From Acidobacteriota bacterium (lineage in GTDB: Bacteria > Acidobacteriota > Blastocatellia > Chloracidobacteriales > Chloracidobacteriaceae): a DNA stretch of 53,484 nucleotides. The notes under the pieces are model-generated. The model did no database searches. It saw nothing but the letters and a program-made list of their open reading frames with translations, and was not told the origin of the DNA. The stretch lies in contig JACQXX010000082.1 in assembly GCA_016208495.1 (NCBI GenBank), forward strand, positions 1 through 53,484, read 5' to 3'. Shown piece by piece: positions 4,390 to 18,793 of the stretch (position 1 is the first letter of the stretch; each line of letters starts with the position of its first letter). A program made the translations under genes and the position numbers.

Positions 4390-4615
4390 GGTAGCTTTGT
4401 CTTCCTTTCTTTGTAACAATTGAAAGCACCGCATCAGGTCAGGCAGGGAGAGTTTGCGAGACGGTCCGTGCCTGACCTGCCGTGTTAGAAACGTGGTTGA
4501 GAGTCCCGCCTTCAGGCGGTTCTGGAAATGAGCAAATCCTCCAAATTGTTGATCACATTTGTGTTACGTCACCTCAACCTGCCGGGTGATCCAGCACGAG
4601 GTTGGAATGATTTCC

Positions 4616-4730
4616 GTTCAGAGTTGCTGCCTTTAGGCGGTCCCGTTCAGAGTTCCGCCTTCAGGCGGCCCCGATGTCCCTTCAGACCAGGTTCAGGATA
4701 CAAAACCCGCCTAAAGGCGGAACTCTGAAC
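4616..4730. repeat. Palindromic AGTTCCGCCTTTAGGCGG repeat
   Basis: Arms of 24 nt at 4645-4668 and 4707-4730 are inverted copies of each other (GTTCAGAGTTCCGCCTT and its complement) with one mismatch. A third, direct half-copy lies at 4616-4640. The element ends in a T-run. A related palindrome with the same AGTTGCTGCCTTCAGGCGG core lies at 17893-17982, so this is a dispersed family in this genome. Confidence 0.75.
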
Positions 4731-5365
4731 TTTTTTCTCGTTGTTTAAGGTCTTGATACAACTCAAGTTGTTTGATTTGTTGGGTCGAAGCAAGCTCACG
4801 CTTAAGCTCCGTGCTTTTGGCTGATTTCAAGAAATTGAAAGATGAATCATTCGTAAAGTTTACCTGCTTCAAAGCGGCGTCAAGCCGCCGCACTCCGAAA
4901 TTTCAAAAGTATCTGGCCTGAGTCGGTTTAGAATGAACCCAGGAAAGTTCGCATCACCACATGCGAGGCATAACCGTCATTGTGCTGGGTTCAGGTTCAA
5001 TTGTGCCTGTTATCTTTTTGAAAAGGTGAGTGAGAATACTTTGGTGCCCCCCCCCCTCGTCAAGCATTATATTCCGGAAATATTGTAAAATGTGGCTAAT
5101 TAGAGCGTGTCGCAGAACTCTATGCCTGAAAAATAAGCACTTACAGCTTCTGCGCATTTTCCTCTTTGAATCCAGTCCCGAAAAATTGTGAAGGAGTCAA
5201 TGAAATCATGACTAGGTTGAATTCGTAAGTGCTTTGCTCATCTAATTATATGAAACTAAAGGGTCAATAATTTCTCCACGGCAAAATGCACGGAAGTCAA
5301 TCAGATGAAGGGCGGCCCTTTTTCCAATGCAGTCACGGTTGATATAGCTTTTTAGATAAATATTT

Positions 5366-5445
5366 CCTGGGAGCGCGGGCGTCCCGCCCGCACCAAATCT
5401 ATTGATGACAAATGAGTTGCGGGCGAGACGCCCCGCGCTCCCAGG
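5366..5445. repeat. GC-rich REP-like hairpin
   Basis: The left arm CCTGGGAGCGCGGGCGTCCC (5366-5385) and continuing CGCCCGCA pair with the right arm at 5418-5445, which reads TGCGGGCGAGACGCC then CCGCGCTCCCAGG. The loop of about 25 nt is AT-rich. This is a strong extragenic hairpin; no gene-specific role is evident. Confidence 0.75.
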
Positions 5446-5493
5446 CAGGAATCTTTTTTTCTGAAGAACTATAGTTGTCTCAGCTTCACAGGT

Positions 5494-5613
5494 TCACTGA
5501 TTCAGCTTGAACTCAACCACTGTCCCGCCCGGCTCCTTTTGAGCCCAGGTCACCTGCGCTGAAATCAAACTGGTGCGGGAGCGGATGTTGGCCAGGCTGG
5601 AAGTGAAAGAGAC
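5494..5613 (-). pseudogene. C-terminal remnant of a histidine kinase (HATPase domain)
   Basis: The minus-strand frame reads LANIRSRTSLISAQVTW followed by GGTVVEFKLNQ and a stop. This matches the end of NarL-type histidine kinase ATPase domains, where a NIR-x-R helix, a short strand and a final GT-x-V-x-x-x-L strand precede the C-terminus. The upstream ATP-binding boxes are missing and the frame loses similarity before about 5613. A MITE lies immediately upstream (5689-5804). I read it as a decayed gene end; about 35 residues is thin evidence. Confidence 0.45.
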
Positions 5614-5688
5614 GGCAAGATAAATTTCTGGGAGTCTGTTTCCGAAAATTGCACTGGAATTTGGCGTTGGCTGGGGTTTATGCAACGA

Positions 5689-5804
5689 TAAGTACCTTGC
5701 CATAAATTTATTGAGAGATTGAATCTCGGAAGTATTTGATTCTTTTTGTGTATTTCGTGTATTTCGTGGTTAAAAACGTCTTGGAATTTTCGGTAACGTA
5801 CTTA
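5689..5804. mobile_element. MITE-like element, family 2, copy 1
   Basis: This 116-bp element begins TAAGTAC and ends GTACTTA, with imperfect terminal inverted repeats of about 20 bp and a possible TA target duplication at each end. Internally it carries the short tandem motif TTTCGTGTATTTCGTG. A second copy lies at 18091-18205. Its right end supplies the A of the start codon of the downstream gene at 5804. Confidence 0.65.
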
Positions 5805-8437
5805 TGACCACCTCATCCTCACCACCACGTACCACGCTGACCAGCTTTTTGGCTGACTTTCTCAACCGTGGCAACGAAACGGCCTTTGCTGTCAAACGAG
5901 GCGTGCGGGTGATTCGCTGGTCATATCGGCGGACGGCTGAAATCGCGTTTCAAATCGCCCATGAACTCACCGCCCAGGGAATTGAACCAGGAGACCGGAT
6001 TTTAATGTGGGCTGAGAATAGCCCTGAATGGGTAGCGGCCTTTTTCGGATGTTTACTGGTTGGCAGCGTGGCCGTGCCGCTCGATTCTCAAAGCACACCT
6101 GAGTTTGTCAGTCGAATCATCAGCCAAACCGGGGCCAAACAAGGATTTTGTGATTCGGCGACCCAGGCTCAGTCTCCTCCGGAAATCTCCTGGCTTCGGC
6201 TGGAAACTATTCAAGCAACCGTCTCAAAACATCCTCACACGCCCTGGCATCCAGTTGAAATCAAGTCAACTGATGTGGCTGAAATCATTTTCACTTCAGG
6301 CACAACGGCGGAACCCAGGGGAATTTGCCTTTCCCACCGCAATCTGTTGGTCAATCTGCAGCCACTCGAACAGGAAATCCAGAAGTATTTAAAATGGGAA
6401 CGGCCTTTTCATCCAATTCGATTTCTGGACTTACTCCCATTAAGTCACGTGTTTGGCCAGTTTATGGGTGTCTTTGTGCCCCAGTTGCTCGGTGGTGAAG
6501 TCCACTTCCAAACCAGCGTCAACCCAACCGAAATTCTGGAGACCATTCGCCGGGAGCGGATTTCAGTTTGTGTGATTGTTCCCCGGTTGCTTGAAACCCT
6601 GCGGCAAAAAGTAGAGCGAGACTGGCTGGTGTCGCACCCTGGTCAATCACTCCAGACGGTGCTGGCTGAGTGCCCGAAGGAACACTTTGCCCGTCGCTGG
6701 TGGCGATTCCGGAAGGTTCACAACCAGTTTGGCTGGAAGTTTTGGGCCTTTATTTCGGGCGGTGCCACGCTGGACCAAAACCTTGAAGCTTTCTGGCGGC
6801 ACCTGGGGTTTGCGTTAATTCAGGGTTATGGAATGACCGAAACCGCTTCGCTGGTCAGTGTGGTGCATCCCTTTAAACTCAGCCAGGGTTCAATTGGGAA
6901 AGCGCTTCCAGGCCGAGAACTCAAGCTTGATGACGGCGGAGAAATTCTGGTCCGAGGTGAAAATATTGCCGCTGGTGTCTGGCAAGGAGACAAAATTCAA
7001 CCTCTGAGCGACGATGGGTGGCTCCGCACCGGGGATATTGGGTCTCGTGATGCGGAAGGCAACCTGTTTTTTCGTGGGCGGAAAAAAGAGGTCATTGTGA
7101 CCGGCGCCGGGATGAATATCTACCCCGAGGATTTGGAAGCCGCCCTGCTCCGGCAGCCTGAAATCTGGCAGGCCGCTGTGTTTGGGATAGACGGTCAAAC
7201 CGGACCAGAACCCGTAGCCGTGGTGATTGTACGGGATGAACAAACAGCGGTTGATCAACTTCTGGCAACCGTGAACGCTGGATTGAACCCGTACCAGTCC
7301 ATTCGACGATGTCTGGTGTGGCCGGGGTCTGATTTTCCACGCACCAGCACCCACAAAACCCGCAAGCGCGATGTCATGGCCTGGGCCACCGCACAGCTTG
7401 GGACTGGCCAAAGCCAAACGCTCTGCGAAGAGTTGACTTCAGATTTTCTGTTGACTGCGATTGAAAAAATTACCCATGAAAAACCACTCCGGTTTGATCC
7501 GGAAGCAAATTTGACGACCGATTGCCGGCTTGATTCGCTTGGAAAGGTTGAACTCTTGAGCTGGCTTGAAGACCACTTTCACATCGAACTGGATGAAGCC
7601 GCATTTACGGCGGCAACCACAGTGGGCCAGCTTCAATACCTGATTGAACAGGCGATTGGAGCGACCAGCCCTGGGTTGCGTGAGTCAAAAGCGTCACCCG
7701 TTGAGCCCCAGCCACTTTCTGACGCGCCCTATCCATTCCCGGCCTGGGCGATGCGTGCTCCGTGGACGTGGTTGCGGCAACTGCTGTTTTACAGCATTGT
7801 CTGGCCAGTCTGTACGGTGTTGTGTTGGACACGAGTGGAAGGCCGCGACCATCTGGCTCACCTGACTGGCCCGGTGGTGCTGGTTGCCAACCACATCACG
7901 ATTGCCGACCACGCGCTGATTTTAGCGGCGCTCCCGGCAAAGGTACGTTCCCGACTGGCGATTGCCATGGAAGGCGAGCGCTTGCGGGATTTTCGATTTC
8001 CCCCGGCAGGCACAGGATGGGTTCGGAGACTCTGGATGCCGGTGCAATATCTTCTGATCGTGCTCTTTTTCAACGTATTTCCACTGCCGCAAAAAAGCGG
8101 GTTCCGGCGGAGTTTTCGCTACGCCGGGCAGGCCGTGGATCAGGGGTTTCACATTTTGATTTTTCCCGAGGGTCGCCGGTCAGAGGAAGGTCACATGCAT
8201 CCGTTTCGGTCAGGTATTGGCGTCCTGGCCAGGGAAATCCAGGTGCCGGTGGTGCCAGTCTACCTGGCTGGTCTGTACGAATTACAACAAAAAGGAAAGC
8301 AGCGCTGGTTCAATCGCTTTTGGGCGGCACCGGGTTCAGTTCAGATTCGATTTGGCCCATCAGTTTCTTTTTCAAAGGATGCGCACCCGGAACACATCGC
8401 CCGAGAACTTGAACAAGCTGTCCGTAGACTTGAATAA
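5804..8437 (+). CDS. Acyl-adenylating synthetase / acyl carrier / PlsC acyltransferase fusion
   Basis: This 877-residue protein has three domains. Residues about 1-540 are an AMP-binding acyl-CoA/acyl-ACP synthetase: EIIFTSGTTAEPRG (160-173), GYGMTET (341-347), RTGD (408-411) and the GRKKEVIVTGAGMNIYPED hinge. Residues about 550-625 are an acyl carrier domain with the phosphopantetheine serine in DSLGKVELL (Ser578). Residues about 660-870 are a PlsC/LPLAT acyltransferase with NHITIAD (His697, Asp702) and FPEGRRS (787-793). It probably activates a fatty acid, loads it on its own carrier domain and transfers it to a lysophospholipid or glycerol-phosphate acceptor, at the membrane. E. coli Aas joins similar catalytic domains, but in the other order and without an ACP. 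The ATG abuts a MITE and has no clear Shine-Dalgarno sequence. Confidence 0.92.
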   Translation: MTTSSSPPRTTLTSFLADFLNRGNETAFAVKRGVRVIRWSYRRTAEIAFQIAHELTAQGIEPGDRILMWAENSPEWVAAFFGCLLVGSVAVPLDSQSTPEFVSRIISQTGAKQGFCDSATQAQSPPEISWLRLETIQATVSKHPHTPWHPVEIKSTDVAEIIFTSGTTAEPRGICLSHRNLLVNLQPLEQEIQKYLKWERPFHPIRFLDLLPLSHVFGQFMGVFVPQLLGGEVHFQTSVNPTEILETIRRERISVCVIVPRLLETLRQKVERDWLVSHPGQSLQTVLAECPKEHFARRWWRFRKVHNQFGWKFWAFISGGATLDQNLEAFWRHLGFALIQGYGMTETASLVSVVHPFKLSQGSIGKALPGRELKLDDGGEILVRGENIAAGVWQGDKIQPLSDDGWLRTGDIGSRDAEGNLFFRGRKKEVIVTGAGMNIYPEDLEAALLRQPEIWQAAVFGIDGQTGPEPVAVVIVRDEQTAVDQLLATVNAGLNPYQSIRRCLVWPGSDFPRTSTHKTRKRDVMAWATAQLGTGQSQTLCEELTSDFLLTAIEKITHEKPLRFDPEANLTTDCRLDSLGKVELLSWLEDHFHIELDEAAFTAATTVGQLQYLIEQAIGATSPGLRESKASPVEPQPLSDAPYPFPAWAMRAPWTWLRQLLFYSIVWPVCTVLCWTRVEGRDHLAHLTGPVVLVANHITIADHALILAALPAKVRSRLAIAMEGERLRDFRFPPAGTGWVRRLWMPVQYLLIVLFFNVFPLPQKSGFRRSFRYAGQAVDQGFHILIFPEGRRSEEGHMHPFRSGIGVLAREIQVPVVPVYLAGLYELQQKGKQRWFNRFWAAPGSVQIRFGPSVSFSKDAHPEHIARELEQAVRRLE

Positions 8438-8624
8438 CCGAAAAATTATCAAATACCAATAGAAGATTTTGGAAACAGTTATTTTTCAACAGGTTAGTTT
8501 TTATTCCCTCAAAAAGAAAACTTACAAAATAGTATAGCTAAAGAACAGTGAAAGGATATACTTTTGCACACGTTCCGTATATGCTGTGGCCTTCATTTCT
8601 GACAACTTTTTAAAGAGGGCAGCC

Positions 8625-9623
8625 ATGAAGCCACAGGACTTCTCGCAATTGGACCTTATCCAGTTAACCTTCGGTTGTAAGAGCACTCGACCGGCCACAC
8701 TTCCGCCATTTCTTGGGTCAACGCTTCGAGGTGCCTTTGGACATGCGTTCAAACAAGTCGCCTGCGCCCTCGAAGGACCAACCCGCTGTGCTCAAACCTG
8801 CCAGCAACCTGCCCAGTGCCGCTATGCCTTTCTATTTGAAACGGCAGTTCCACAGCACCAGTCTCCAAATCACCGCCACCAGGATATTCCCCATCCCTAC
8901 CTGTTGATTCCTCCGCTTGTGCATTACAGTGTCTCCCGCATTGGGTTCAAGGAAGGTGATCCACTGGAATTTGGGATTATCCTTATGGGCGAAGCCATCA
9001 ACCTGGTTTTGCTGGTAACCGTCGCTGTCGAACTGATGCTGGACCAGGGACTTGGTTCATCGCGGACGCCGTTCCAACTGGCTTCCGTGACCGCCTGGGG
9101 GAAAACCCAAATTTGTTCGATTGAGAAACCAAAGCCTGATACCGAAGCGCTTTATGCCGCGATCACACCTCTTTCCAACGTGATCGAACGGCGACTGGCG
9201 CCACTCAACCCTCTGGCGGAATCACTCACCCTTCGGTTTTTGACACCGTTGCGACTTCGCAAGGGAGGCAATTTGCAGGACAGCATCGGTTTTGTGGATA
9301 TTGTTCGCCACCTAATGCGCCGAATGGAGACCTTGACCGAAGCCTTCGGCTCGGCGCCTCCACGGGTTGACACCGAACGTCTGCCGGCCCTGGCAAGCCA
9401 GATCCAAACCACCGCCAATTCATTGTGGTGGAATGATATGGAGCGGTTTTCAAATCGGCAGCAAACCAAATTAAAACTAGGCGGGCTGATGGGTGAAATT
9501 TGTTTTTCAGGTCCAGTGTTAGCCGAGTTCCTTCCTTTGCTGGCTGCCGGGGAGGTGCTGCACATTGGGACGGCGACTACCTTTGGGCTTGGACGGTACG
9601 AACTTCTTCATGACCTCAAATAG
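8625..9623 (+). CDS. cas6: CRISPR-associated endoribonuclease Cas6
   Basis: This 332-residue protein processes CRISPR precursor RNA in type I and III systems. The N-terminal RAMP ferredoxin-like fold is marked by LPPFLGSTLRGAFGHAF (residues about 26-42) and a cysteine cluster CAQTCQQPAQCRYAFLFE typical of this Cas6 subgroup. The C-terminus carries the glycine-rich loop ATTFGLGRYELL. I chose the ATG at 8625, preceded by AGAGGG, over an in-frame GTG at 8586. A 12-nt gap separates its stop from the CARF-like stub and csx15 follows, which suggests one transcript. No CRISPR array or other cas effector gene lies in the window, so it would have to act on arrays elsewhere or be a relic. Confidence 0.9.
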   Translation: MKPQDFSQLDLIQLTFGCKSTRPATLPPFLGSTLRGAFGHAFKQVACALEGPTRCAQTCQQPAQCRYAFLFETAVPQHQSPNHRHQDIPHPYLLIPPLVHYSVSRIGFKEGDPLEFGIILMGEAINLVLLVTVAVELMLDQGLGSSRTPFQLASVTAWGKTQICSIEKPKPDTEALYAAITPLSNVIERRLAPLNPLAESLTLRFLTPLRLRKGGNLQDSIGFVDIVRHLMRRMETLTEAFGSAPPRVDTERLPALASQIQTTANSLWWNDMERFSNRQQTKLKLGGLMGEICFSGPVLAEFLPLLAAGEVLHIGTATTFGLGRYELLHDLK

Positions 9624-9635
9624 GGAGAAAAAACT

Positions 9636-9746
9636 ATGGAACGGACGATATTGATTCTCATCGGCGGACGAAGCGCAATTCCAGCCATGATGAGGACATT
9701 ACAATTTTCGCAGACGTTGGCAAGGAGTTCTCATGATTGTAATTAA
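9636..9746 (+). pseudogene. 36-codon stub resembling the N-terminus of a Card1/Can2-type CARF effector
   Basis: A short frame starts 12 nt after cas6 with a GGGAGAAA ribosome site, and encodes MERTILILIGGRSAIPAMM followed by 17 more residues. The spacing TIL-x-x-x-x-x-x-x-x-IP matches the first strand, loop and helix of Card1/Can2-like CARF proteins as I remember them (TILVNLVSEQTIPNV in Treponema Card1). The frame stops at 9746, 14 nt inside csx15, and no CARF or nuclease continuation is seen in any frame. My reading is that an internal deletion removed nearly the whole effector up to the csx15 ribosome site. It could instead be a coupled leader peptide. The identification rests on about 20 residues. 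Confidence 0.5.
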
Positions 9747-10113
9747 CTTTTCCCACCCGCTTACCCCAACCCAGATAACTGCCATTGAAAATCTGGCGGG
9801 CAATGTGATTCAAGAAGTCATACAAATCAAAACGCAACTTGATCCTCAACAACCATTTGGCGAGCAAGTGAAACCCCTGATTGAATCTATCCCGTTTCTT
9901 TCCCAGCAGTGGCAAACCGAAGCCATTTTGATCAATCTGCCGAGTTTTAGCCCGATTGCGGCGCTGGTTCTGGCTGCACTGCACGGCAGGATGGGATATT
10001 TCCCGGCGGTTGTGCGACTTCGACCAATTGAAGGCAAAGTTCCGCCTCAGTTCGAAGTTGCTGAAATCCTCAATTTGCAGGCCATCCGTGATTCAGCCCG
10101 TTCTGACCGATAA
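9733..10113 (+). CDS. csx15: Csx15 family CRISPR-associated protein (putative ring nuclease)
   Basis: A 126-residue protein beginning MIVINFSHPLTPTQ, the characteristic start of Csx15, followed by a short alpha/beta domain with LINLPSFSPIAALVLAALHG and FPAVVRLRP. Csx15 sits beside type III CRISPR loci and has been proposed to degrade cyclic oligoadenylate second messengers. The ATG at 9733 has AAGGAG five nt upstream and lies inside the tail of the CARF-like stub. Length and both ends look normal for the family. I cannot assign catalytic residues by eye. Together with cas6 and csx3 it indicates a former or dispersed type III CRISPR locus. Confidence 0.8.
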   Translation: MIVINFSHPLTPTQITAIENLAGNVIQEVIQIKTQLDPQQPFGEQVKPLIESIPFLSQQWQTEAILINLPSFSPIAALVLAALHGRMGYFPAVVRLRPIEGKVPPQFEVAEILNLQAIRDSARSDR

Positions 10114-10326
10114 TGACGGCTTCAGTTTCGGTATCCGCCTGACCATCCGCATCTGGAATAGATTGGTTTTGACAGTCCAAAGTTCATCCTTTAAAGTAGC
10201 CAGACCTTCGTTCACTTTCCAATCCCGCCAACCTGAGCCATGGTCAAAACGGTGAAAGGTTCGCACAATTCCTGTAAACTTTGAAAACAGATGTTTTATG
10301 TTTGATGGTGTCCAACGAGTAACTGT
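10093..10326 (-). other. Unexplained open stretch, possible gene remnant
   Basis: On the minus strand a frame is open from a stop just beyond 10326 down to a TGA at 10093-10095, with protein-like content (SKFTGIVRTFHRFDHGSGW, DELWTVKTNLFQM) but no suitable start codon. It may be the tail of a disrupted gene, or chance. It overlaps the last 21 nt of csx15. I do not recognise a family. No plus-strand gene is credible between 10114 and 10360. Confidence 0.25.
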
Positions 10327-10360
10327 TTAGAACCAGGCCGATCCTGTACCTTTTCATTGT

Positions 10361-10388
10361 CACTTAGACGTGCTGCAGTGCGGATTGG
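10361..10388 (+). repeat. 28-bp direct repeat, copy 1
   Basis: This exact 28-bp sequence (beginning CACTTAGACGTGCTGCAGTG) recurs at 10737-10764. The two copies bracket the large palindromic element 10428-10707. The flanking bases differ, so the identity ends sharply at 28 bp. It may be an unusually long target duplication. Confidence 0.85.
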
Positions 10389-10427
10389 AACAAATTGTTC
10401 ACTTTCTGGGAGGGGTGGCCCTTTCAA

Positions 10428-10707
10428 GTGTAGATTTTTGGTTTGCACCTCGAAGAGTTGCCGTTCGGATAGCCGGTCGGTTGGCCGCTTTGGGCCTACC
10501 ACCGGATCCGGTGGCCGATTCTTTTTCCCCGCGCGAGCCGCGCCCCACAGGGGCGCGGCTCGCGCGGGGGGGTAGGGAAACGACCCTTTCCCGGTGGTAG
10601 CTCACAAAGCCTCGCAACCGACCGGCTATCCGAACGGCAGCCCTTCGGGATGCTCAAAACAGTTTTCATCGCCTCGTCCCAGCCGGAGTTCATTAAAAAA
10701 TCTACAC
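10428..10707. repeat. Large nested palindromic element between csx15 and csx3
   Basis: Three pairs of inverted arms are nested around one centre: GTGTAGATTTTT at 10428-10439 with 10696-10707; a perfect 25-bp pair at 10459-10483 and 10615-10639 (TGCCGTTCGGATAGCCGGTC, then GGTTG); and a perfect 20-bp stem CCCCGCGCGAGCCGCGCCCC at 10527-10546 with 10550-10569 around an ACA loop. A smaller palindrome CCACCGGATCCGGTGG lies at 10499-10514. The sections between arms are only partly complementary. It is non-coding, since both strands show the same arginine/glycine-rich low-complexity frames. It looks like a mobile palindromic unit inserted into the CRISPR accessory operon. Confidence 0.8.
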
Positions 10708-10736
10708 GTGAAGAAGGGGCGGCCCTGCTGGTCGGC

Positions 10737-10764
10737 CACTTAGACGTGCTGCAGTGCGGATTGG
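10737..10764 (+). repeat. 28-bp direct repeat, copy 2
   Basis: An exact repeat of 10361-10388, 36 nt upstream of the csx3 start codon. If one copy plus the palindromic unit is removed, csx15 and csx3 come within about 310 bp of each other. Confidence 0.85.
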
Positions 10765-10800
10765 GAATACCCAAGGCAACTCATTTTAAGAGAAAAAGTT

Positions 10801-11766
10801 ATGGGGAATCTAAATCTTCAGTTTATTCAAACGGATCAAAACTTTCAGATCCTTGATTTTTACGTTGATGGCAACCTGACGCTGGACCCAGGAACCCTGG
10901 CTGAGGTTCAGCTTCCCAGTGGGGCTAATCTGGATAAAGGGCTGGTCATCAATGGGAAAGGGCCAGTCTGGCTCTATGCTCGTTTAGCAGGTCTTTGTCA
11001 GGATTTTCCCTGGGTTGGGACGTTTGACCCTCGGTTTGGATCACTCATTGTCCTATCCAGAATCCCGGAAATGCAGGTTGGAACCATGATTCCGGCAAAC
11101 CAGATAACCCTTTATTTGACAACCCGGAAGTCTGACGCCTCACCCGTTGTCGGGGCGCAAGTCACCGTGAGCAGCAAAGTGATTGCCTTTGTTGGTCCTC
11201 CACATAGCGGCAAATCAGTTTTGGCGTATTTGGTGCAAGATCGTCTCAAACAATTGATGGGGGCAGACTATGGCACTGACTTTTTCCTGATAGTCGCTTG
11301 TCCCGATGGAGAAGGAATTTGGAGCCAGGAATCTTTGCCCGAAGTGGTGAGCATCATCCGGCACAAAGGAACTTTTGACCAGGATTTTATCGAAAAAACC
11401 AGGGTGTCGTTGGAAGGTTTGAAAGCTCAAAAAAGGCTGGTGTTTGTTGATTGTGGCGGGAAAATCAAAAGGGACATTCAAGCGTTTCTCAATTTATGTA
11501 CTCACGCGATCATTGTTGCCGCAAAAGACAAACCTCACGCCAGTTGTGAATGGCGCGGCGCCTGTCTGGCAAGTGGTGTGGAAATTGTGGCCGAGGTCGA
11601 GTCGGTGCTTGAACCTGAAGAAACCGTTTTGGAGAGTTCTCCGCTCAAAATTCGCTTTGGACCGCTTGAGCGAAACCGGACTGAGGTCGTGGTTCCCGAT
11701 AAACTGATGGCTGCCATTCTGGCTGGAACAAAGTGGGAAGCCGCTTCATTCTCTTCGCAGTTTTAG
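10801..11766 (+). CDS. csx3: Csx3 (Crn3-like) fused to a P-loop ATPase domain; catalytic histidine apparently lost
   Basis: Residues 1-105 of 321 are a Csx3 domain with KGLVINGKGPVWLYARLAG and WVGTFDPRFG. Csx3/Crn3 is a ring nuclease cleaving cyclic tetra-adenylate made by type III CRISPR. Residues about 125-315 form a P-loop domain: FVGPPHSGKSVLAYLV (Walker A, 130-145) and RLVFVDCGG (possible Walker B). Csx3-ATPase fusions are known, notably in cyanobacteria. Aligned with my recollection of Archaeoglobus Csx3 (His60, Asp69, Arg71), the Asp (76) and Arg (78) are kept, but the His60 position is Gln67 and the neighbouring His57 position is Gly64. The protein may therefore bind rather than cut cA4. 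The start ATG has AAGAGA upstream. Confidence 0.82.
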   Translation: MGNLNLQFIQTDQNFQILDFYVDGNLTLDPGTLAEVQLPSGANLDKGLVINGKGPVWLYARLAGLCQDFPWVGTFDPRFGSLIVLSRIPEMQVGTMIPANQITLYLTTRKSDASPVVGAQVTVSSKVIAFVGPPHSGKSVLAYLVQDRLKQLMGADYGTDFFLIVACPDGEGIWSQESLPEVVSIIRHKGTFDQDFIEKTRVSLEGLKAQKRLVFVDCGGKIKRDIQAFLNLCTHAIIVAAKDKPHASCEWRGACLASGVEIVAEVESVLEPEETVLESSPLKIRFGPLERNRTEVVVPDKLMAAILAGTKWEAASFSSQF

Positions 11767-11825
11767 AAGCCCTTCTCTTCTTGTGCTTAAAGTATTCTAC
11801 CTGATTTCACAGGTGGAATTATTCC

Positions 11826-12386
11826 CTAATCAAAAATCGTTGAAAAGTTGATTTCGACCGGAAACCCAGCTATCGAGGTGAGTTTAGTGGTGGCCGTATA
11901 CGTTTCCTGGACGTCGTACCTCCCAGCTTTTGGCTGCTGGTAAGCCAGGATTTTCTCAGCCGTCAAATCAACAATCCATACTTCGGGAATTTCAGCCTGG
12001 GCATACATTGGCAACTTTGTGTCTCGGTCGTAACTGAGCGAAAGGTCTGAGACTTCAATGACGAGCAGCACCTCGTTCGCCTGCGGATGTTGTTCCGCAT
12101 AGAAGTCATCTTTGAACTGGAGAATTGAAAGATCAGGTTGGGGTTCGGTAAACGAATCCAGTTGAATTGGATCCTGGACACCAATAATCACTTTTCCAAG
12201 CAGTTGCCTCGAAAGCAGTGCATTAAACCGTTTGACACAGGCGGCATGCCGACTTCCAAAGGGACTCATTGAAATGACCACACCAGCAATCAGTTCTGTT
12301 CGGTCATCTTCAGTCAAGATTCCAGTTTCAACCATCCGGTGGAAATCCTGAACTGAAAACCACCTTTTTGTGGGATGTGTTGACAT
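11826..12386 (-). CDS. Uma2 family (DUF820) restriction-fold nuclease
   Basis: A 186-residue PD-(D/E)XK-fold protein with the usual Uma2 blocks: DRTELIAGVVISMSPFGSRH, VQDPIQL with EPQPDLSIL, VLLVIEVSDLSLSYDRDTK (the D...E-x-K-like core) and EVWIVDLTAEKILAY. Members are abundant in cyanobacteria, Acidobacteriota and Chloroflexota; their biological role is unsettled. The ATG at 12386 has AAAGGTGG just upstream, whereas the longer TTG-initiated frame runs into a minisatellite and is not credible. It is convergent with csx3, whose stop is 59 nt away. Confidence 0.88.
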   Translation of the reverse strand: MSTHPTKRWFSVQDFHRMVETGILTEDDRTELIAGVVISMSPFGSRHAACVKRFNALLSRQLLGKVIIGVQDPIQLDSFTEPQPDLSILQFKDDFYAEQHPQANEVLLVIEVSDLSLSYDRDTKLPMYAQAEIPEVWIVDLTAEKILAYQQPKAGRYDVQETYTATTKLTSIAGFPVEINFSTIFD

Positions 12387-12400
12387 ATAAACCACCTTTC

Positions 12401-12470
12401 TGGGGCTGAAAAACCCAGGGCTCAGGGCTTGGGGCTGAAGAAAACGGGCTGAAGAAGTCGGGCTGAAGAA
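12401..12470. repeat. GGGCTTGGGGCTGAAGA minisatellite, copy 1
   Basis: Short imperfect repeats of GGGCT(T/C)GGGGCTGAAGAA occur just upstream of the Uma2 gene. Longer versions with inverted arms lie at 39351-39567 and 41975-42150. Confidence 0.7.
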
Positions 12471-12565
12471 TAAACTTTTCGAAAAGCGCCAAGCACCAGG
12501 AACCAAGCACTAAACCACCAACCACCAACCACTAACCACTAACCACTTTCTTCATTCTTCATTCT

Positions 12566-14665
12566 CTAGCCGCTTACACCTTTGGCCATGACCGGAATTT
12601 TGGCCAGCTTTTCAGATGCGTCTACCTGCATGCGGGCAAATCCTTCGGGGTCCTTTCGCCAGGTTTCAGCCAAGTCCTGTTTTTTCGCGATGTCTTCATC
12701 CGTGATGTATTTTCCGAATGATCGCAATCCGGCCAATTGATATCCATGCTTTTTGAAGAGCCGGTAGATTTCCTTCACCCGGTCTATCGTGATGTTGCGC
12801 CCGAGCGTGTAGTCTTCAAACCGACCTTCCATTGCCAAAAGCGAAGTTTCCGCCAGACAGGCATAGGCCGTTTTCGGCGGAAGCCCGATGTTATAGCCAA
12901 AATCAATATCACCTGGGATCAAAACTTCTCCACTTTCAATGACCAAAACATCTGGCCTGAGCGCGCCTTCCTTTTTATTGATATCGGGCGGGCGGGCGAC
13001 GTCACAAATCACGGCGCCAGGTTTGCATTTCGTGATATCCACAATTCGTTGTCCAAAGGCTGACGTTGCCGTCACGATCAAATCACATTCTGGGAGGAGT
13101 TCATCCGGACGTGTGGCAATCGCGACTTTGGCTTCCGGGGTTTCTTCCAGGATCGAGCGTTTTAAGTCAATCAGGCGCTCGGGTTCGATAGAGACCAGCA
13201 CCACGTCATGAATTGCCTGGGCCAGGAGTCGTGAACACACCGAACCAATTGAACCGGTTGCGCCAATGATCATGGCTTTGCCACGGGTTAGATCTTTCAT
13301 GCCCATCTTGATGACGGCTTGTTTGGCCGCTTCGAGCGTCGCCGCCACGGTCAGGCTGTTTCCACTGGTGATGGCAATATCGGCTTCGTGCGCCACGGTC
13401 ATTCCAGCATCGCCGACCACGCTGGTAAAGGCCCCCAATCCCATAATGCGTGCCCCCAGTCGTTCGGCCATGCGGGCCGCCCGGTTGAGTTGTTTGTAGG
13501 TAAATCGGGGATCCATGCGCATCATTCGCCGAGGGGTGGCACACAGGGTAATCAAAAACCCTTCAATGCGTTGGCCGGTCGTAGGTGAAACCCCACCAGT
13601 AACTCGGGAGAGATAAATTGGTGGAAGGTACGACCCCACCATTTCGACCAGCCAATCAGGAAAGAACCTCGTCCAGGTAAAACGTGGGTCAGCGTTGAGA
13701 AAACTGACGTCAAGTGGGTGAATCACAAACGCAAATCGGTTGATTCCAGCTTCGTCTGGCTGGAGGTACTGAATTGACGGCGTCCATTGAATTTCAGCCA
13801 TCAGGTCCAGATAGGTATTTTCATCCAACGGGGAATCTTTTTTGGTGCGCAACGAAGCCAGGACGGCTTCCAGCGTTGCCGCCGACCAGCAGCCGAGTGC
13901 GTCATTTTTTGAAAGCGAAGGCATCAGAGTCACAACGATTGAAACCCCACGTTCGCGCAACTCTTCGATTTGGTTGGGCGAGGCGTTTTCAACCACAACA
14001 GTCTTGCGCTTCAGTGTTTTGGGAGCATAGCGAAGGATGGCGCCGATGTCGCCGGCAATCACTTCAGCCCAATCGAAAATTTGGGTTGTCCGTTTCGCGT
14101 GAGGTTCGCCAGGGGAAGGTTGCAACCGACGAAAGGGAGCGTCTTTTAATTGATCAAGTGTGGTTGGCGCCGCCTGTTCGAGCGTGTATTTTGCTCCGAC
14201 ACCAGGAAGTGCCGGAAGATTAAAATACATGATCGGGTCGCCATAACGAAGTTCCGAACCGCTCCGCCCCAGTGCATGAGCCAGGCCCGTGTGATTTAAT
14301 CCAGGAAACATCAATATTCGCTTATAACTGAAAATTCCCGGTTGCGCCCGATTGGCCAGAATTACCCCCCACCGTTCCAATCCTGAACGCACGCCGTGGC
14401 CATCAACGACTGGGGTTTGCGTTGCGGCTTTGGCCAGGCGGGTCCCTGACGAATGTGGTTGGCGAGCCGAGCCCAGTTCCAGTGTGGCCGGCATGCCTTC
14501 GAGGGCAATGGCATCAACTTTCCCATCAAACTGGGAGATCAATGCCTGGACTTTTTCTGGATCACCTTCCGAACCGATTCGTTCAATTTCAATTGTTTCT
14601 CCAAGAAATTCGATGGTTTCCTGGCGGTGTTCCTGATTGGTGTGGATGACGAGGATCTTTTTCAT
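12566..14665 (-). CDS. Long acyl-ACP-reductase-like NAD(P)-binding protein
   Basis: A 699-residue protein. The C-terminal half (about 330-690) resembles cyanobacterial long-chain acyl-ACP reductase (AAR): [35 protein letters not shown], the Rossmann loop GATGSIG (468-474) and [13 protein letters not shown]. In the last motif Cys603 aligns with the cysteine that forms the acyl-enzyme thioester in Synechococcus AAR. The N-terminal 300 residues ([20 protein letters not shown] onward) are a separate domain I do not recognise; AAR itself is about 340 residues. A fatty-aldehyde-producing reductase is plausible, but no aldehyde deformylating oxygenase is nearby. I chose the ATG at 14665 over an upstream in-frame TTG at 14713; its ribosome site is weak. 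Confidence 0.72.
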
Positions 14666-14872
14666 GGCAGTTTTTTCACTTTGCAACTCAAAAGGTGAAG
14701 ACGTGCGGTTCAATCATTCCAGGTCTGGGGCAACCCGATTTTTTCACTTGACTATGCAGGAGACAATTTTCAGGCCACAAATCTGAGAACCCGTGAGTTT
14801 TTAGAGGATTCTCCATATATTCACCCTTCCTGTATTTTGATGAAGGTCAGAATTTTGAGGAGGTGAATCAAA

Positions 14873-15229
14873 ATGTTGGCCTCTGTCTGTTCAACTTTGT
14901 TCCGAATTCTGACTTTTCAATTTACCAAAGCTGAGATTGAAAATCCCTCATACTGGCATCTGGTAGTTGGTTTTATTTTGACGTGGGTCGTTGGGATTAG
15001 GCGATACTGGGATCATCCCAAAGCTGAATTATTACAATATTTTGGACCAGGGTCCGTGATGTATGTTTTGGTACTGGCGCTCTATCTCTATCTGGTTGTT
15101 TTGCCCGTATGGCCAGATACCTGGTCTTATCGCCAACTGCTCACATTTATTCGACTGACCTCTCCCCTGGCCATCCTATATGTGTACCAGTTGAAAAATA
15201 GTTTTCACTTGAAATGGCGCGAGCATTGA
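14873..15229 (+). CDS. Small membrane protein, unknown function
   Basis: A 118-residue protein with a strong ribosome site (GAGGAGGTG) and three hydrophobic segments: HLVVGFILTWVVGI, VMYVLVLALYLYLVVLPVW and a weaker one near the C-terminus (LTSPLAILYVYQL). Its stop overlaps the start of the next membrane gene by 16 nt, so the two are probably translated together and may once have been one gene or a pair. I do not recognise a family. Confidence 0.65.
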   Translation: MLASVCSTLFRILTFQFTKAEIENPSYWHLVVGFILTWVVGIRRYWDHPKAELLQYFGPGSVMYVLVLALYLYLVVLPVWPDTWSYRQLLTFIRLTSPLAILYVYQLKNSFHLKWREH

Positions 15230-15526
15230 ACGTCTGGTTTTTGGTGATTGTGGGTACCTGGAGCGTTGTTGCTGGTTTGATTTACTTGCGAAGATATGCG
15301 GGATTGAGGAATTTTGCGCAGTTTGCCGCAACCTTTCTCCCGCTTTCCCTTATTGTCATGGCACTGGTCAGGCTGAACCTGCTCGCTTACGGTTCATATT
15401 GAATTTCGCCGTTTCTGGTGGTGTACTATGTTCTGGCAATTGTCGGGCAGTGGAAAAAAGATCGCCTGAGAGTTCCTCCCAAACTCCCGATTTACACCAG
15501 TCGCTTCAGTCAAAGGGAATCAAGAT
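15214..15526 (+). pseudogene. Membrane protein interrupted by an in-frame TGA
   Basis: An ATG at 15214 opens a frame with two hydrophobic helices (VWFLVIVGTWSVVAGLIYL and LPLSLIVMALVRLNLLAY) that stops at TGA 15400-15402. The same frame continues for 40 codons with a third convincing membrane helix (FLVVYYVLAIVGQW) and a basic tail, ending at 15526. This looks like one three-helix protein broken by a single nonsense codon. It may alternatively be a genuine 62-residue protein ending at 15402. The methyltransferase start (15525) overlaps the end of the continued frame by two bases, consistent with an original operon. Confidence 0.5.
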
Positions 15527-16208
15527 GAAATTGTTGGACGCCAATCAATTAGAACGCTCATCGATTGTGGCCAATTCACTGATGAACCGTGAGCGAAATG
15601 TCGCCGGCACCAATAGCTACCAAAAAGACCTGCGGTTTGATGTGCTCAATTTCATCACAACCGGGCTCTCTCGGAAGTCAACGATGTCGTGGCTTGACCT
15701 GTGTTGTGGGACGGGAAAAGCCGTTCTGCAATCAGCTCAGACATTGAACGAATCTGGTTTGGCTGGAAAGGTGAGCCTGGTGGGAGTTGACCTGGTGGAT
15801 AGATTTTTCCCCAAACCTGAATCCTTTTATTTTCTGGAGCTGGTTCCGGCTTCGCTCTCGAATTGGCACCCAGTTCAGCCATTTGACCTGATTACCTGTG
15901 TGCATGGATTGCACTATATCGGGGATAAACTTGACTTGATCACCCGCGCTGTATCCTGGTTGACGACAGAGGGGGTTTTTGTTGCCAATCTGGACCTGAA
16001 CAATCTCAAACTTGACCATCGAATGTCAGCAAATCGGTTACTGGTTTCACTTTTGAAAAAACAGGGACTGCACTTTGATGCCCGCCGAAAAATCCTGACC
16101 TGTCTTGGACAAAAACAGATCAGTTTGAACCTGACATTTCTTGGCGCTGATGATCAGGCTGGCCCAAATTATACAGGGCAACCAGCGGTAAATTCCTATT
16201 ACCGGTGA
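15525..16208 (+). CDS. Class I SAM-dependent methyltransferase
   Basis: A 227-residue protein with the SAM-binding glycine motif WLDLCCGTGKAVL (about residues 53-65), an acidic strand end SLVGVDLVD, and the post-motif segment DLITCVHGLHYI. The substrate is unknown. The ATG at 15525 has AAAGGGA upstream; the longer frame upstream of it belongs to another reading frame of the membrane gene. It follows the two membrane genes closely and may share their transcript. Confidence 0.8.
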   Translation: MKLLDANQLERSSIVANSLMNRERNVAGTNSYQKDLRFDVLNFITTGLSRKSTMSWLDLCCGTGKAVLQSAQTLNESGLAGKVSLVGVDLVDRFFPKPESFYFLELVPASLSNWHPVQPFDLITCVHGLHYIGDKLDLITRAVSWLTTEGVFVANLDLNNLKLDHRMSANRLLVSLLKKQGLHFDARRKILTCLGQKQISLNLTFLGADDQAGPNYTGQPAVNSYYR

Positions 16209-16503
16209 GACGGTATTTCAAGAAAATGGGTTGAGCTTCCAGGCAGCAACTCTTTGTTAGATCGAAAATAAAGGGCTTACAGGTGTGAAAAAGCTGTAAG
16301 TTCTTTGAATTGATTCAAATAAAGAATTGCTGGCTTCCAGAAATCGCCCGTTTGAATAGGCCCTGGGTTACAAGGCTTTGCGAGCCACCTGGGAAACCTC
16401 GATCATTACCTCAAAAGATTGTGAGCAGATTGTGAGCATAGAAACCCAAATATTTCGCGTTTTGTAGCAGGTCAGAATATTTGGTTATGTAAGGAGTTCC
16501 CCT
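16209..16503. other. Intergenic spacer without a gene
   Basis: Only a short stem (CTTACAG and CTGTAAG around 16278-16302) and the AAGGAG ribosome site of the following gene are visible. Nothing else can be supported. Confidence 0.5.
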
Positions 16504-17757
16504 ATGTCCCAACCGTTGAGAGAAAGTCAAAAAATGAGGCACTGTGTAAGAATTTTTATTTGCCTGGGTTTTGTTATTTTATTTTGTACCAATAGCTGGG
16601 CAATGCAAAAAAGGGAATGGCCATCAGTTATTGGCGTGAAATACCAATCAGCTACACATTCAGAGACCAAAAGTGAATCATCCGGAAAAAATGCCTTCCA
16701 AAAGCCGATTTTCATTTCAGGTACTGGGTCTGCAACAACCATCTTAACTGTTGATTATAACCAGGATGGAGTAACCGACCTGATTGAGAGAGCAGGGAAT
16801 GTAATTACAATTCACCTGGCAAACAGCGATGGCTCTTTTTCAGACAATAAGGTTTATCAGTTAAATCTGGAAGAATTTTTCGCCACTAATGAAAGTCTTC
16901 CATTACTGGCAGCGGCTGATTTGGACAATAACCAGACGCTCGAACTGATACTTCCCGTACCTGGTACTTTCGTCGTGATATTCAATTCTGGGTTTAAGGA
17001 AGATACCGGTTATATTTTTACCCTTCGTGTAAGTCCTTCAACTTCCTCTCCTAATTCTATTGAAACAACTGATTTTGATAATGATGGAGACATTGATATT
17101 GTATTGGCAGATGAGATGGCCAACCTGGTGCTGGTATTGTTCAATAATGGAGCTGGTATATTTGGAAGAAGCATGACCTTTGAGACTGGATTGAAACCAA
17201 AAAAGGTGGCCATTGATGATCTCAATTCAGATGGAACCAAAGACCTGGTGATTGCCAATGTGGGCAGTAATTCTATAAGTGTTGTTCTGGGAGGTGAGAC
17301 ATTGGCAACCGTAAGCTCAATTTCCCTTCCAATGTCACCAGAAACCGTTATCATCAACGACTTGAATGGCGACAACAACCTGGATGTGATGGTTGCGTCA
17401 CAAGGTCCCTTCGGCAAATTTGGAATTTTATTTGGTGATGGAAATGGTGAATTTAATCTGGTTTTAAGCTCAGTTGATCTGCCACCAGTCGGCGGGGCTG
17501 TCAGTGGTAATTTTGTGGGCGACCAAAAGCCAGAAATTATCTTTACCCATCCCGAGAGTAAAAAGTTGACGCTGGTTACTTTTTCAGAGTCCGGGATAGA
17601 GGCATCAAGCCTTCAATTTGAAGGTGTTAAGTCACCGATTTTGTTGGAAACGGATGACCTGAATCGGGATGGATTCCCGGACTTAATTCTGGCAACCAAA
17701 AATAAGAAGAAATCAATCGTGATTCTTCTCAATGCTGGTACGACAAAAGGCGAGTAA
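16504..17757 (+). CDS. Secreted FG-GAP/VCBS repeat protein
   Basis: A 417-residue protein with a signal peptide (hydrophobic IFICLGFVILFCTNSWA, residues about 18-34) followed by a beta-propeller made of FG-GAP/VCBS repeats. Calcium-type loops recur: DYNQDGVTDLI, DFDNDGDIDIV, DLNSDGTKDLV, DLNGDNNLDVM and DLNRDGFPDLI. Such proteins are exported and usually bind glycans or surfaces; no enzymatic motif is seen. The start is supported by AAGGAG seven nt upstream. A MITE begins immediately after the stop codon. Confidence 0.88.
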   Translation: MSQPLRESQKMRHCVRIFICLGFVILFCTNSWAMQKREWPSVIGVKYQSATHSETKSESSGKNAFQKPIFISGTGSATTILTVDYNQDGVTDLIERAGNVITIHLANSDGSFSDNKVYQLNLEEFFATNESLPLLAAADLDNNQTLELILPVPGTFVVIFNSGFKEDTGYIFTLRVSPSTSSPNSIETTDFDNDGDIDIVLADEMANLVLVLFNNGAGIFGRSMTFETGLKPKKVAIDDLNSDGTKDLVIANVGSNSISVVLGGETLATVSSISLPMSPETVIINDLNGDNNLDVMVASQGPFGKFGILFGDGNGEFNLVLSSVDLPPVGGAVSGNFVGDQKPEIIFTHPESKKLTLVTFSESGIEASSLQFEGVKSPILLETDDLNRDGFPDLILATKNKKKSIVILLNAGTTKGE

Positions 17758-17859
17758 TACCAGTTTGTAGTCAGTAGATCGTAGTCAGTAGTTCACTAAC
17801 TTCAATTGATTGAATTACTTGACTATTTTTTAAGACGATCACTTCATTCCAAAATGGTA
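17758..17859 (+). mobile_element. MITE-like element, family 1, copy A
   Basis: This 102-bp element begins TACCAGTTTG and ends CAAAATGGTA, giving 10-bp inverted ends with one mismatch and TA at both borders. The interior holds GTAGTCAGTAG repeats and a TTGATTGAATTACTTGA core. It starts at the base after the TAA of the VCBS gene. Three other copies lie at 18351-18452, 18618-18761 and 24551-24652. Confidence 0.8.
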
Positions 17860-17892
17860 TAACCCAAATTCTTAGTTTGGAAATCGAGATAG

Positions 17893-17982
17893 AGTCAGGA
17901 GTTGCTGCCTTCAGGCGGGGTTTATGTCCCCAAGTTGGTCTGAACGGATGCTGGGGCCGCCGAAAGGCAGCAACTCTTGACT
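17893..17982 (+). terminator. Palindrome with T-run, possible terminator; dispersed repeat
   Basis: AGTCAGGAGTTGCTGCCTTC (17893-17912) and its near-complement at the right end (…GGCAGCAACTCTTGACT) form a long stem followed by TTTTTATTT. It lies downstream of the VCBS gene and could end its transcript. It belongs to the same palindrome family as 4616-4730, so a repeat origin is at least as likely. Confidence 0.45.
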
Positions 17983-18090
17983 TTTTATTTGATGATGGAA
18001 GTAGTTGAACATTCCAAATCGTCCCTCTTTTGGGTTTAAAATCGAGGAAACATTCAAACAAAGAATAGCTGGATTTATTTTTAGAACTCA

Positions 18091-18205
18091 TAAGTACTCT
18101 GTCGTAAGTTTCCTGAGATATTGAATTTGGTAAGTATTTGATTCTTTTCGTGTTTTTCGTGTTTTTCGTGGTTAAAATGTCTTGGAATTTTCGGTAAAGT
18201 ACTTA
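18091..18205. mobile_element. MITE-like element, family 2, copy 2
   Basis: This 115-bp copy of the element at 5689-5804 begins TAAGTACTCTG and ends AAGTACTTA, again with TA borders and the internal TTTTTCGTGTTTTTCGTGG tandem. It lies between family 1 copies A and B in a gene-free region. Confidence 0.65.
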
Positions 18206-18350
18206 TCAGATCCCACCCATTATTGTCGGTCTCAACTCCATTAAAAAGGATAGTTTGAAAACGCGCTGGCGTTACAATTGTAATAGAAGCCACAGCATTT
18301 CTTGGTTCCTCCTTGCCTGAAAAAAAAGAGGCTGGGAAGCAAGCAAATCA

Positions 18351-18452
18351 TACCATTTTGGAATGAAGTGATCGTCTTAGAAGACAGTCAAGTAATTCAA
18401 TCAATTGAAGTTAATGAACTGCTGACTGTGATCTACTGACTACAAACTGGTA
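18351..18452 (-). mobile_element. MITE-like element, family 1, copy B
   Basis: An inverted 102-bp copy of element A (starts TACCATTTTGGAATGAAG, ends CTACAAACTGGTA). Together with copy A it forms an inverted pair about 490 bp apart. Confidence 0.8.
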
Positions 18453-18617
18453 TCACTTTCTTGCTGCGGGAAAAGAGCCGGGTACTCCTGTTAAATATTT
18501 ATAAAACAATATTTTATATGGATCAGCTTGTTGCTGGTATGGGGGTATCTGCGGCCTGTACCCAGGGCTTGAAGAAATATGTGTGGCTCCTTGAGTCAAA
18601 ATCAAAATAATTTGTAA

Positions 18618-18761
18618 TACCATTTTGGAATGAAGCGGTCGTATTAGAAAACAGTCAAGCCATTCAATAAAATGAACTTAGTGAACTACTGACTACTGAC
18701 TACTGACTACTGACTACTGACTACTGACTACTGACTACTGACTACTGACTACAAACTGGTA
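18618..18761 (-). mobile_element. MITE-like element, family 1, copy C, with expanded tandem array
   Basis: The same ends as copy B, but 144 bp long because the internal CTGACTA heptamer has expanded to about nine near-perfect tandem units. It ends 32 bp before the sulfatase start codon. Confidence 0.8.
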
Positions 18762-18793
18762 TAACAACTCCACGCGCTTCCTGCTGAACCCAT

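Follow-up and report, generated by a model that had tools for sequence, protein, structure and literature searches.

Among the closest described relatives of the protein considered here is the Csx3/Crn3 ring nuclease, which is characterised by Mn-dependent cleavage of cA4 and by stacking of its dimers on cA4 and is represented by Archaeoglobus AfCsx3 (PDB 3WZI, 6YUD). As reported in PMC7371418, cA4 is sandwiched in AfCsx3 by two dimers, one contributing its D69 face and its neighbour the H60 face. The H60A and D69A variants are inactive, R71A and H80A strongly lower cA4 cleavage, H57A weakens RNA cleavage, and mixing H60A with D69A restores activity. In the alignment of that paper H57, H60 and H80 are termed absolutely conserved. 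The H60A variant turns milky with cA4, which its authors read as cA4-bridged fibres, and the H60A-cA4 crystal contains a filament of dimers (PMC7371418). In Csx3-AAA fusions a second domain is attached, the function of which is described as an open question in PMC12409355.

Other proteins handle the same signal. Csx15 dimers sandwich cA4 head-to-tail; the Chlorobaculum member is a ring nuclease that needs no metal and cuts cA4 slowly, and some members act as a cA4 sponge only, among them PfCsx15, which carries the loop and hairpin histidines too (PMC13148439). SyCsm6, a CARF protein with a RelE domain, has ring-nuclease activity of its own (PMC9676260). vWA-related proteins and transmembrane proteins are described at CRISPR loci in general in PMC10910872, the main text of which leaves Csx3 unmentioned. 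Titles and abstracts of the open-access literature searched contained no description of a Csx3 that has lost its histidine face, or of a membrane–vWA cassette accompanying Csx3.

Here we describe a Csx3–P-loop fusion from an Acidobacteriota bacterium in which the catalytic face has been replaced and the cA4-holding face kept. The window, by which we mean the whole stretch of 53,484 nucleotides that was analysed, has the following features around the gene:

8586 to 9623, plus strand: cas6 (GTG start as listed, in-frame ATG at 8625; PF10040 3.3e-16; PADLOC Cas6 2.9e-85).
9733 to 10113, plus strand: csx15, 126 amino acids, with H8, H84, R119, R123 and R126 (NF040560 3.6e-48; PDB 9teu 1.9e-18).
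10420 to 10657, no strand assigned: palindromic element separating csx15 from csx3, one copy of an interspersed repeat (matches in its own genome).
10801 to 11766, plus strand: Csx3–P-loop fusion gene, 321 amino acids, ATG at 10801 and stop at 11766 (PADLOC Csx3-AAA, PDLC01045, 2.3e-48, residues 24-306).
10801 to 11119, plus strand: Csx3 domain, residues 1-106 (PF09620, residues 27-97; TIGR02579, residues 15-98).
10990 to 11001, plus strand: codons 64-67, with Gly64 (H57 of AfCsx3) and Gln67 (H60), by alignment.
11026 to 11034, plus strand: codons 76-78, with Asp76 (D69) and Arg78 (R71), part of the retained cA4-holding face, by alignment.
11059 to 11061, plus strand: codon 87, Arg87 (H80 of AfCsx3), by alignment.
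11173 to 11763, plus strand: P-loop domain, residues 125-321 (PDLC01515 2.3e-41), with motifs GPPHSGKS (132-139), CPDGEG (167-172), VDCGG (216-220), THAII (234-238) and AEVES (264-268).

The reading frame is unbroken over all 321 codons. The protein belongs to the Csx3 family by PF09620 (4e-20, 71.9 bits against a cut-off of 21) and TIGR02579 (1.2e-18, 67.2 bits against 55.4), and matches the AfCsx3 structures from 1.4e-11 in a comparison with PDB sequences. Judged by sequence it is a Csx3-AAA fusion, a Csx3 domain followed by the family's P-loop domain (PDLC01045 and motifs), and it shares the same two domains, in the same order and over nearly the whole protein, with the known Csx3-AAA or Csx3' fusions (PDLC01045; slr7080 of Synechocystis). 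The GxxxxGKS, DGxG and DxGG motifs are common to the eight fusions compared, the window's included. An earlier reading of this DNA from its sequence alone (the sequence-only reading) had described an intact fused P-loop ATPase; the Walker A motif GPPHSGKS is indeed intact at 132-139, but the ATPase label goes too far for a domain below every Pfam cut-off, AAA_22 reaching 15.5 and 16.4 bits against 27. In a profile comparison with the PDB the best non-Csx3 match is the GTPase Der (1e-5), around the P-loop only. An AlphaFold2 model built without an alignment had a mean pLDDT of 37.1, and no conclusion rests on it.

Unlike AfCsx3, the window protein has G, Q and R in place of H57, H60 and H80, so that all three histidines of the metal-binding, catalytic face are replaced (G64, Q67, R87). 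The sequence-only reading had seen the first two substitutions, which hold both in the AfCsx3 match and in an alignment of 42 rows, and had overlooked the third. The same two comparisons bear out its pairing of Asp76 and Arg78 with D69 and R71, and no histidine is left in the Csx3 domain, the only ones in the protein being at 135, 188, 235 and 246. Its gap-free alignment to AfCsx3 stands for residues 44 to 80, with short gaps elsewhere along the whole length. Because that stretch is gap-free the pairing of the active-site positions is secure, and a misalignment, considered as the source of the missing histidines, was ruled out with D69 and R71 in register. The cA4-holding face is retained: besides D76 and R78, the protein has the residues of the cA4-holding loop (N51-G52-K53 and V56), and each residue of this face (44N, 45G, 46K, 49V, 69D and 71R in the alignment) is present in some intact fusion. 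As the catalytic histidine face, a defining feature of a Crn3 ring nuclease, is absent, the protein is not to be filed as one, and the NCBI model name (Crn3/Csx3) would mislabel it.

A conserved catalytic residue taking the place of the histidines, which the sequence-only reading had named as an observation that could overturn it, was sought at positions 57, 60 and 80 and not found across the face-lost fusions that keep the cA4 face; these read G/Q/R, H/L/R, N/S/N and S/K/K, and no residue at any of the three positions is common to all face-lost fusions. This argues against residual cA4 cutting, slow or by another route, such as Arg87 acting with the D76/R78 pair without a metal. The metal-free Chlorobaculum Csx15 offers a precedent in the account of PMC13148439, and arginine at position 80, present in the window protein, recurs in G123 and Synechocystis; yet in PMC7371418 the H60A change by itself abolishes detectable AfCsx3 activity, H80A strongly lowers cA4 cleavage and H57A is reported as weaker in RNA cleavage. 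We regard such cutting as decidedly doubtful.

The frequency of the loss was judged from PF09620 searches of genome samples that overlap one another. Matches were found in 14 of 396 genomes of the window's phylum (two of the 14 being P-loop fusions), in 2 of 98 and 4 of 393 relatives, in 17 of 395 genomes of the phylum of G511, a Bacteroidota MAG, and in 13 of 332 genomes of the class of G896. Plasmid-record searches yielded 9, 15 and 3 records, and fusions of other phyla were sampled through plasmid records alone. A public genome scan for close relatives pointed to two loci, one an integrase-like frame and the other a frame of 92 residues; both matches look fortuitous and were set aside. The viral contigs and phage records searched held no close relative.

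In the 42-row alignment the helix histidine is present in 13 of 22 fused Csx3 domains and in all 19 stand-alone proteins. The nine fusions without it are those of the window, G123, G896, G1057, G711, Allocoleopsis and Nostoc ATCC 53789 and two from Synechocystis, whereas G880, G1110, G1077, G954, G1031, G979, G1100 and G959 have all of H57, H60, D69, R71 and H80. Loss as a trait of Csx3–ATPase fusions at large does not survive inspection of the His60 column, and we rejected it as a mark of all fusions: unlike the window protein, most of those compared (the same 13 of 22) keep the histidine. The G711 fusion, which has G at 60 and H at 61 and is without D69, R71 and H80, was scored as lost despite its column-61 histidine; otherwise the loss stands at 8/22. 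Most cyanobacterial fusions and many Bacteroidota stand-alone proteins form a clade in which the second histidine is shifted by one residue, to column 61, where it was counted as kept; G711 lies outside that clade. Among the stand-alone proteins, the gene of G758 is cut by a contig end with H57 and H60 visible, and Nostoc C052 has R at 57 and D at 71.

Histidine loss differs between fused and stand-alone proteins with a Fisher p of 0.0017, kinship ignored, a contrast that grows weaker as rows are thinned (p of 0.005, 0.013, 0.029 and 0.057 at 90, 70, 60 and 50% identity). Left out of the 22-versus-19 count were Synechocystis PCC 7339 and PCC 6714 (near rows kept) and further Synechocystis records; G755 and G696, the match shown for each being identical to that of G814; the first domain of a tandem Pseudanabaena protein (A at 57, later histidine kept); and Csx1–Csx3 together with short histidine-face-only forms (eight aligned ones keep H60; L011, L014 and L069 judged by eye). 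On a tree of the P-loop part, where the unfused P-loop gene of G526 took its state from the adjoining csx3, the histidine state changes seven times, although weak branches permit fewer, and a single clade of the window, G123, G896, G1057 and G711 is not rejected (p-AU 0.169, 0.129). If the histidine is never regained the minimum is four losses: Allocoleopsis and Nostoc ATCC 53789 are each joined by a starred branch to a sister that keeps it, and Synechocystis stands separate from both.

The loss reaches one face in some of these proteins and both in others. In the window, G123, G896 and G1057 fusions H60 and H80 are gone, with D69 and R71 still present (K at 71 in G123, which also retains H57), and the face-lost fusions of Nostoc ATCC 53789 and Synechocystis retain D69 and K71, the usual pair of their clade. 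Both faces are lost in Allocoleopsis and G711, where the P-loop motifs are retained; with D69 and R71 gone, cA4 binding is doubtful in these two. The window fusion is 44% identical to that of G123 and 42% identical to the intact fusion of G1110.

Immediately upstream of the fusion lies csx15, with cas6 further upstream on the same strand; by eye, the open reading frames of 4000-20000 include no CRISPR gene beyond these three, and there is no CRISPR array in the window. The window Csx15 is a member of its family (NF040560, 162.9 bits against a cut-off of 35); in H8 and H84 it has counterparts of the 9teu histidines in loop and hairpin, the three C-terminal arginines are present, and it is nearer to 9teu (1.9e-18) than to 9tet (7.6e-4). 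Histidine spacings of 77 and 71 lead us to infer that the Chlorobaculum enzyme is the protein of 9teu and that the PfCsx15 sponge is that of 9tet. Because the PfCsx15 sponge has both histidines too, the residues of the window Csx15 fit either function, and it may be a sponge rather than a nuclease. A Csx15-like domain also occurs at residues 168-290 of PDB 9ylu, a protein named CbCash, for which a literature search by name brought up no paper. Between csx15 and csx3, a 28-base direct repeat (10361-10388 and 10737-10764) flanks the palindromic element, which looks like a MITE-like interspersed repeat: with 40 of 188 candidates scored, and counting the two strands together, it has at least 87 matches in its own genome. 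Two type III systems are present in the genome, each on another contig: a III-B locus with cmr genes, a GGDD Cas10, CARF-RelE, CARF5 and an array of at least nine repeats, and a III-D locus with a GGDD Cas10, Csx19 and a Card1-type CARF nuclease. The fusion gene stands away from both cas10 loci.

This setting would fit a decaying ring nuclease, its role lost when the locus broke up, with the histidines going first and the rest to follow: the gene is separated from the cas10 loci and has just cas6 and csx15 for company, an interspersed repeat separates csx15 from csx3, and the cassette that accompanies the fusion of the G123 relative is missing from the window genome. The frame nevertheless runs unbroken through 321 codons, with the cA4 face and the P-loop motifs preserved despite identities of 44% to G123 and 42% to G1110. 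Moreover, the window, G123, G896 and G1057 fusions have all changed the histidine face and kept the other, unlike random decay, and we consider this explanation unlikely. We consider it highly unlikely that the active site is split, the fusion giving the cA4 face and a second protein the histidine face. Such complementation has a model in the AfCsx3 mixture of H60A and D69A that regains activity (PMC7371418), in the intact csx3 that directly precedes the face-lost fusion in Allocoleopsis and Nostoc ATCC 53789, and in G123, with its cA4-face-only fusion and histidine-face-only Csx1–Csx3 protein. However, a search of the window genome, which is 99.16% complete, for a histidine-face partner gave no convincing match to another Csx3 (the next one has E 0.208), and the Allocoleopsis fusion has lost its cA4 face as well.

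Proteins with the opposite pattern exist. Like the window protein, CARF2–HEPN–Csx3 (PADLOC PDLC01844) has a Csx3 domain fused to an effector, but it keeps the histidine face and is without R71 and mostly without D69, the mirror image of the window protein. Loci L008, L009, L010, L011, L014, L017, L018 and L069 (of which L018 alone was profile-scanned) encode Csx1-type CARF–HEPN proteins with a C-terminal Csx3 in which H57, H60 and H80 are kept, R71 is gone and D69 is gone except in L008. Short stand-alone Csx3-like proteins at L012, L013 and L015 (frames of 85-98 residues) are likewise histidine-face-only. Open reading frames were called mechanically. A stand-alone Csx3 that has every catalytic residue (L049:5932-6216) lies among phage-like genes (integrase, LexA-family regulator, DNA polymerase) on a small Pyramidobacter record, and an anti-CRISPR use is possible for it.

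The neighbourhoods of intact and face-lost fusions differ in part. All eight intact Bacteroidota-side fusions adjoin a gene for Csm3 or Csm4 together with one or more CARF proteins (profile-confirmed), the remaining genes of their csm operons being assigned by eye; no csx15, csx20 or second csx3 was found by them in flanks of 4.3 to 9.6 kb, with single-sequence csx15 and csx20 queries that distant kinds may escape. A ring-nuclease or csx3 gene adjoins four of the nine face-lost fusions: csx15 in the window, csx20 in G1057, and an intact csx3 directly before the fusion in Allocoleopsis and Nostoc ATCC 53789. The two Synechocystis face-lost fusions have no adjoining ring nuclease in the flanks examined, and the helix histidine persists in Nostoc UHCC 0302 and G814 despite a nearby csx3 or csx15. 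At L073:2012-2521, L122:931-1422 and L124:192-704 a small lipoprotein, similar by eye, stands before a CARF gene heading csm operons.

Several relatives share a two-gene cassette, a membrane protein of about four helices and a vWA lipoprotein, found within type III CRISPR loci or close to them and to Csx3–P-loop genes (L126:9885-11812, L074:10012-11834, L036:2735-4548, L096:4871-6885, L098:4942-6848 and L099:5098-7040). In G1057 the order is csx20, fusion, membrane protein (381 amino acids), vWA lipoprotein (261 amino acids), cas10 (GGDD) and III-D genes, with two CARF proteins (one CARF–HEPN), an array and another vWA lipoprotein further on; the CARF proteins and this further lipoprotein led us to reject the cassette as sole effector of that locus. 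In G896 the fusion is followed by the membrane protein and then the vWA lipoprotein; upstream, close to where the contig stops, a 20-mer occurs three times and possibly marks the end of an array. G123 has the same three genes preceded by a III-D Cas7 gene. In G711 a 206-amino-acid membrane protein follows the fusion and the cassette is on a different contig. Since G123, G896 and G711 lie on short contigs cut by contig ends, their neighbours are visible on one side. The lipoproteins of the cassette are related (G123 and G896 at 6e-12 in a database of eight sequences) and those of G123, G896 and G1057 have DxSxS; the membrane proteins fall into linked groups. Among the cassette proteins scanned, none reached a Pfam cut-off (VWA_2, 14.8 of 27; VWA_CoxE, 17.1 of 26.4) or gave a convincing PADLOC model. 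The Allocoleopsis fusion has no such cassette nearby; the window fusion has no membrane or vWA gene within 10 kb on each side, and the window genome is without the cassette (best vWA match E 0.441).

Within the Archaeoglobus-like clade, which includes the window fusion, the cassette is next door to 3 of 6 face-lost and 0 of 9 intact Csx3-first fusions (Fisher 0.044, kinship ignored; pairs were too few for a pair test respecting kinship). A strict tie of loss to cassette is not upheld. The reverse-order P-loop–Csx3 fusions of G814, G755 and G696 have intact histidines and the cassette near, the stretches read around the cassettes of G558, G774 and G550 contain no Csx3, and the G711 cassette is on another contig than its fusion. 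Standing near intact fusions and in Csx3-free loci as well, the cassette is not bound to the loss. Related arrangements include the reverse-order fusions at L060 and L096, P-loop domain and Csx3 as separate adjacent genes (L078:9251-10160), and a Csx15 domain behind predicted transmembrane segments (190 amino acids; L096:3924-4496) that adjoins a vWA cassette and a P-loop–Csx3 fusion.

On the sequence evidence, we give an even chance to the reading that the window protein binds cA4 without cutting it and couples cA4 to its NTPase domain. The fusion would have descended from a cA4 ring nuclease. Its Csx3 dimer would bind cA4 on the D76/R78 face (D76, R78, N51-G52-K53, V56), and a second dimer would stack and close the site, perhaps with R87 in place of H80. 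As no metal site would form, the cA4 would be sandwiched uncut in a lasting complex, a tetramer or fibre, and the lasting stack would set the activity of the fused NTPase domain. Removal of cA4 would be left to others, most simply the Csx15 next door, or CARF proteins with ring-nuclease activity of their own. Binding, non-cleavage, NTPase coupling and this division of labour with Csx15 are what we infer from the following evidence. Loss is limited to one face, with 57, 60 and 80 all changed; AfCsx3 H60A is inactive yet milky with cA4 and packs as a filament of dimers in the crystal, as PMC7371418 describes; G123, G896 and G1057 also keep D69, R71 (K in G123) and the P-loop; the P-loop motifs are common to eight fusions; and the cell has genes for cA4-type signalling (two GGDD cas10, Card1-type, CARF-RelE, CARF5). 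We also count in its favour the ring-nuclease or csx3 gene beside four of nine face-lost fusions, with no csx15, csx20 or second csx3 found in the 4.3 to 9.6 kb flanks of the eight intact Bacteroidota-side ones, and the membrane–vWA cassette headed by the G123, G896 and G1057 fusions.

Against the non-cutting binder we count that H80 also contacts cA4 in AfCsx3, so that its change could weaken binding; that the window genome is without the membrane–vWA cassette, that the gene stands away from the two cas10 loci and that a repeat element separates it from csx15; that the neighbour pattern is incomplete (Synechocystis, the contig-cut G123, G896 and G711, Nostoc UHCC 0302 and G814); and that the window Csx15 is possibly a sponge, not a nuclease. 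A protein serving purely as a sponge, mopping up low cA4 and using its NTPase domain for another purpose such as fibre disassembly, has a counterpart in those Csx15 proteins that sequester only (PMC13148439), but the neighbouring gene already encodes a Csx15, an NTPase is superfluous to a sponge, and even the Allocoleopsis and G711 fusions, with their cA4 face gone, retain the P-loop motifs; we think this improbable. The likelihoods given to these five readings overlap.

The described systems nearest in logic differ from a non-cutting receiver in construction. As is proposed for the window protein, Csx15 sandwiches cA4 between dimers, and some members, one family member adjoining the window fusion, sequester it without cutting (PMC13148439), but Csx15 has another fold (CARF) and no NTPase domain. 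The cyclic-nucleotide filament effectors Cat1 and TIR-SAVED (PMC13148439) resemble the proposal in that a stacked receptor switches on a fused domain; their receptor and output domains are different, and for the window protein, known from its sequence, a filament is only proposed.

Tentatively, in several lineages the fusion may have turned from a type III off-switch into a receptor, cA4 stacks driving an NTPase that acts on a membrane protein and a vWA lipoprotein (G123, G896 and G1057), the membrane partners of the window member being gone or replaced. The behaviour predicted for the window protein is that of AfCsx3 H60A, inactive and fibre-forming with cA4, and its loss face by face fits the two-half-site mechanism proposed for AfCsx3. 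Natural fusions without the cutting face, available beside intact relatives such as that of G1110, separate binding from cutting without mutagenesis and make the function of the second domain of Csx3-AAA proteins directly testable, and the membrane–vWA cassette becomes a candidate output of type III signalling.
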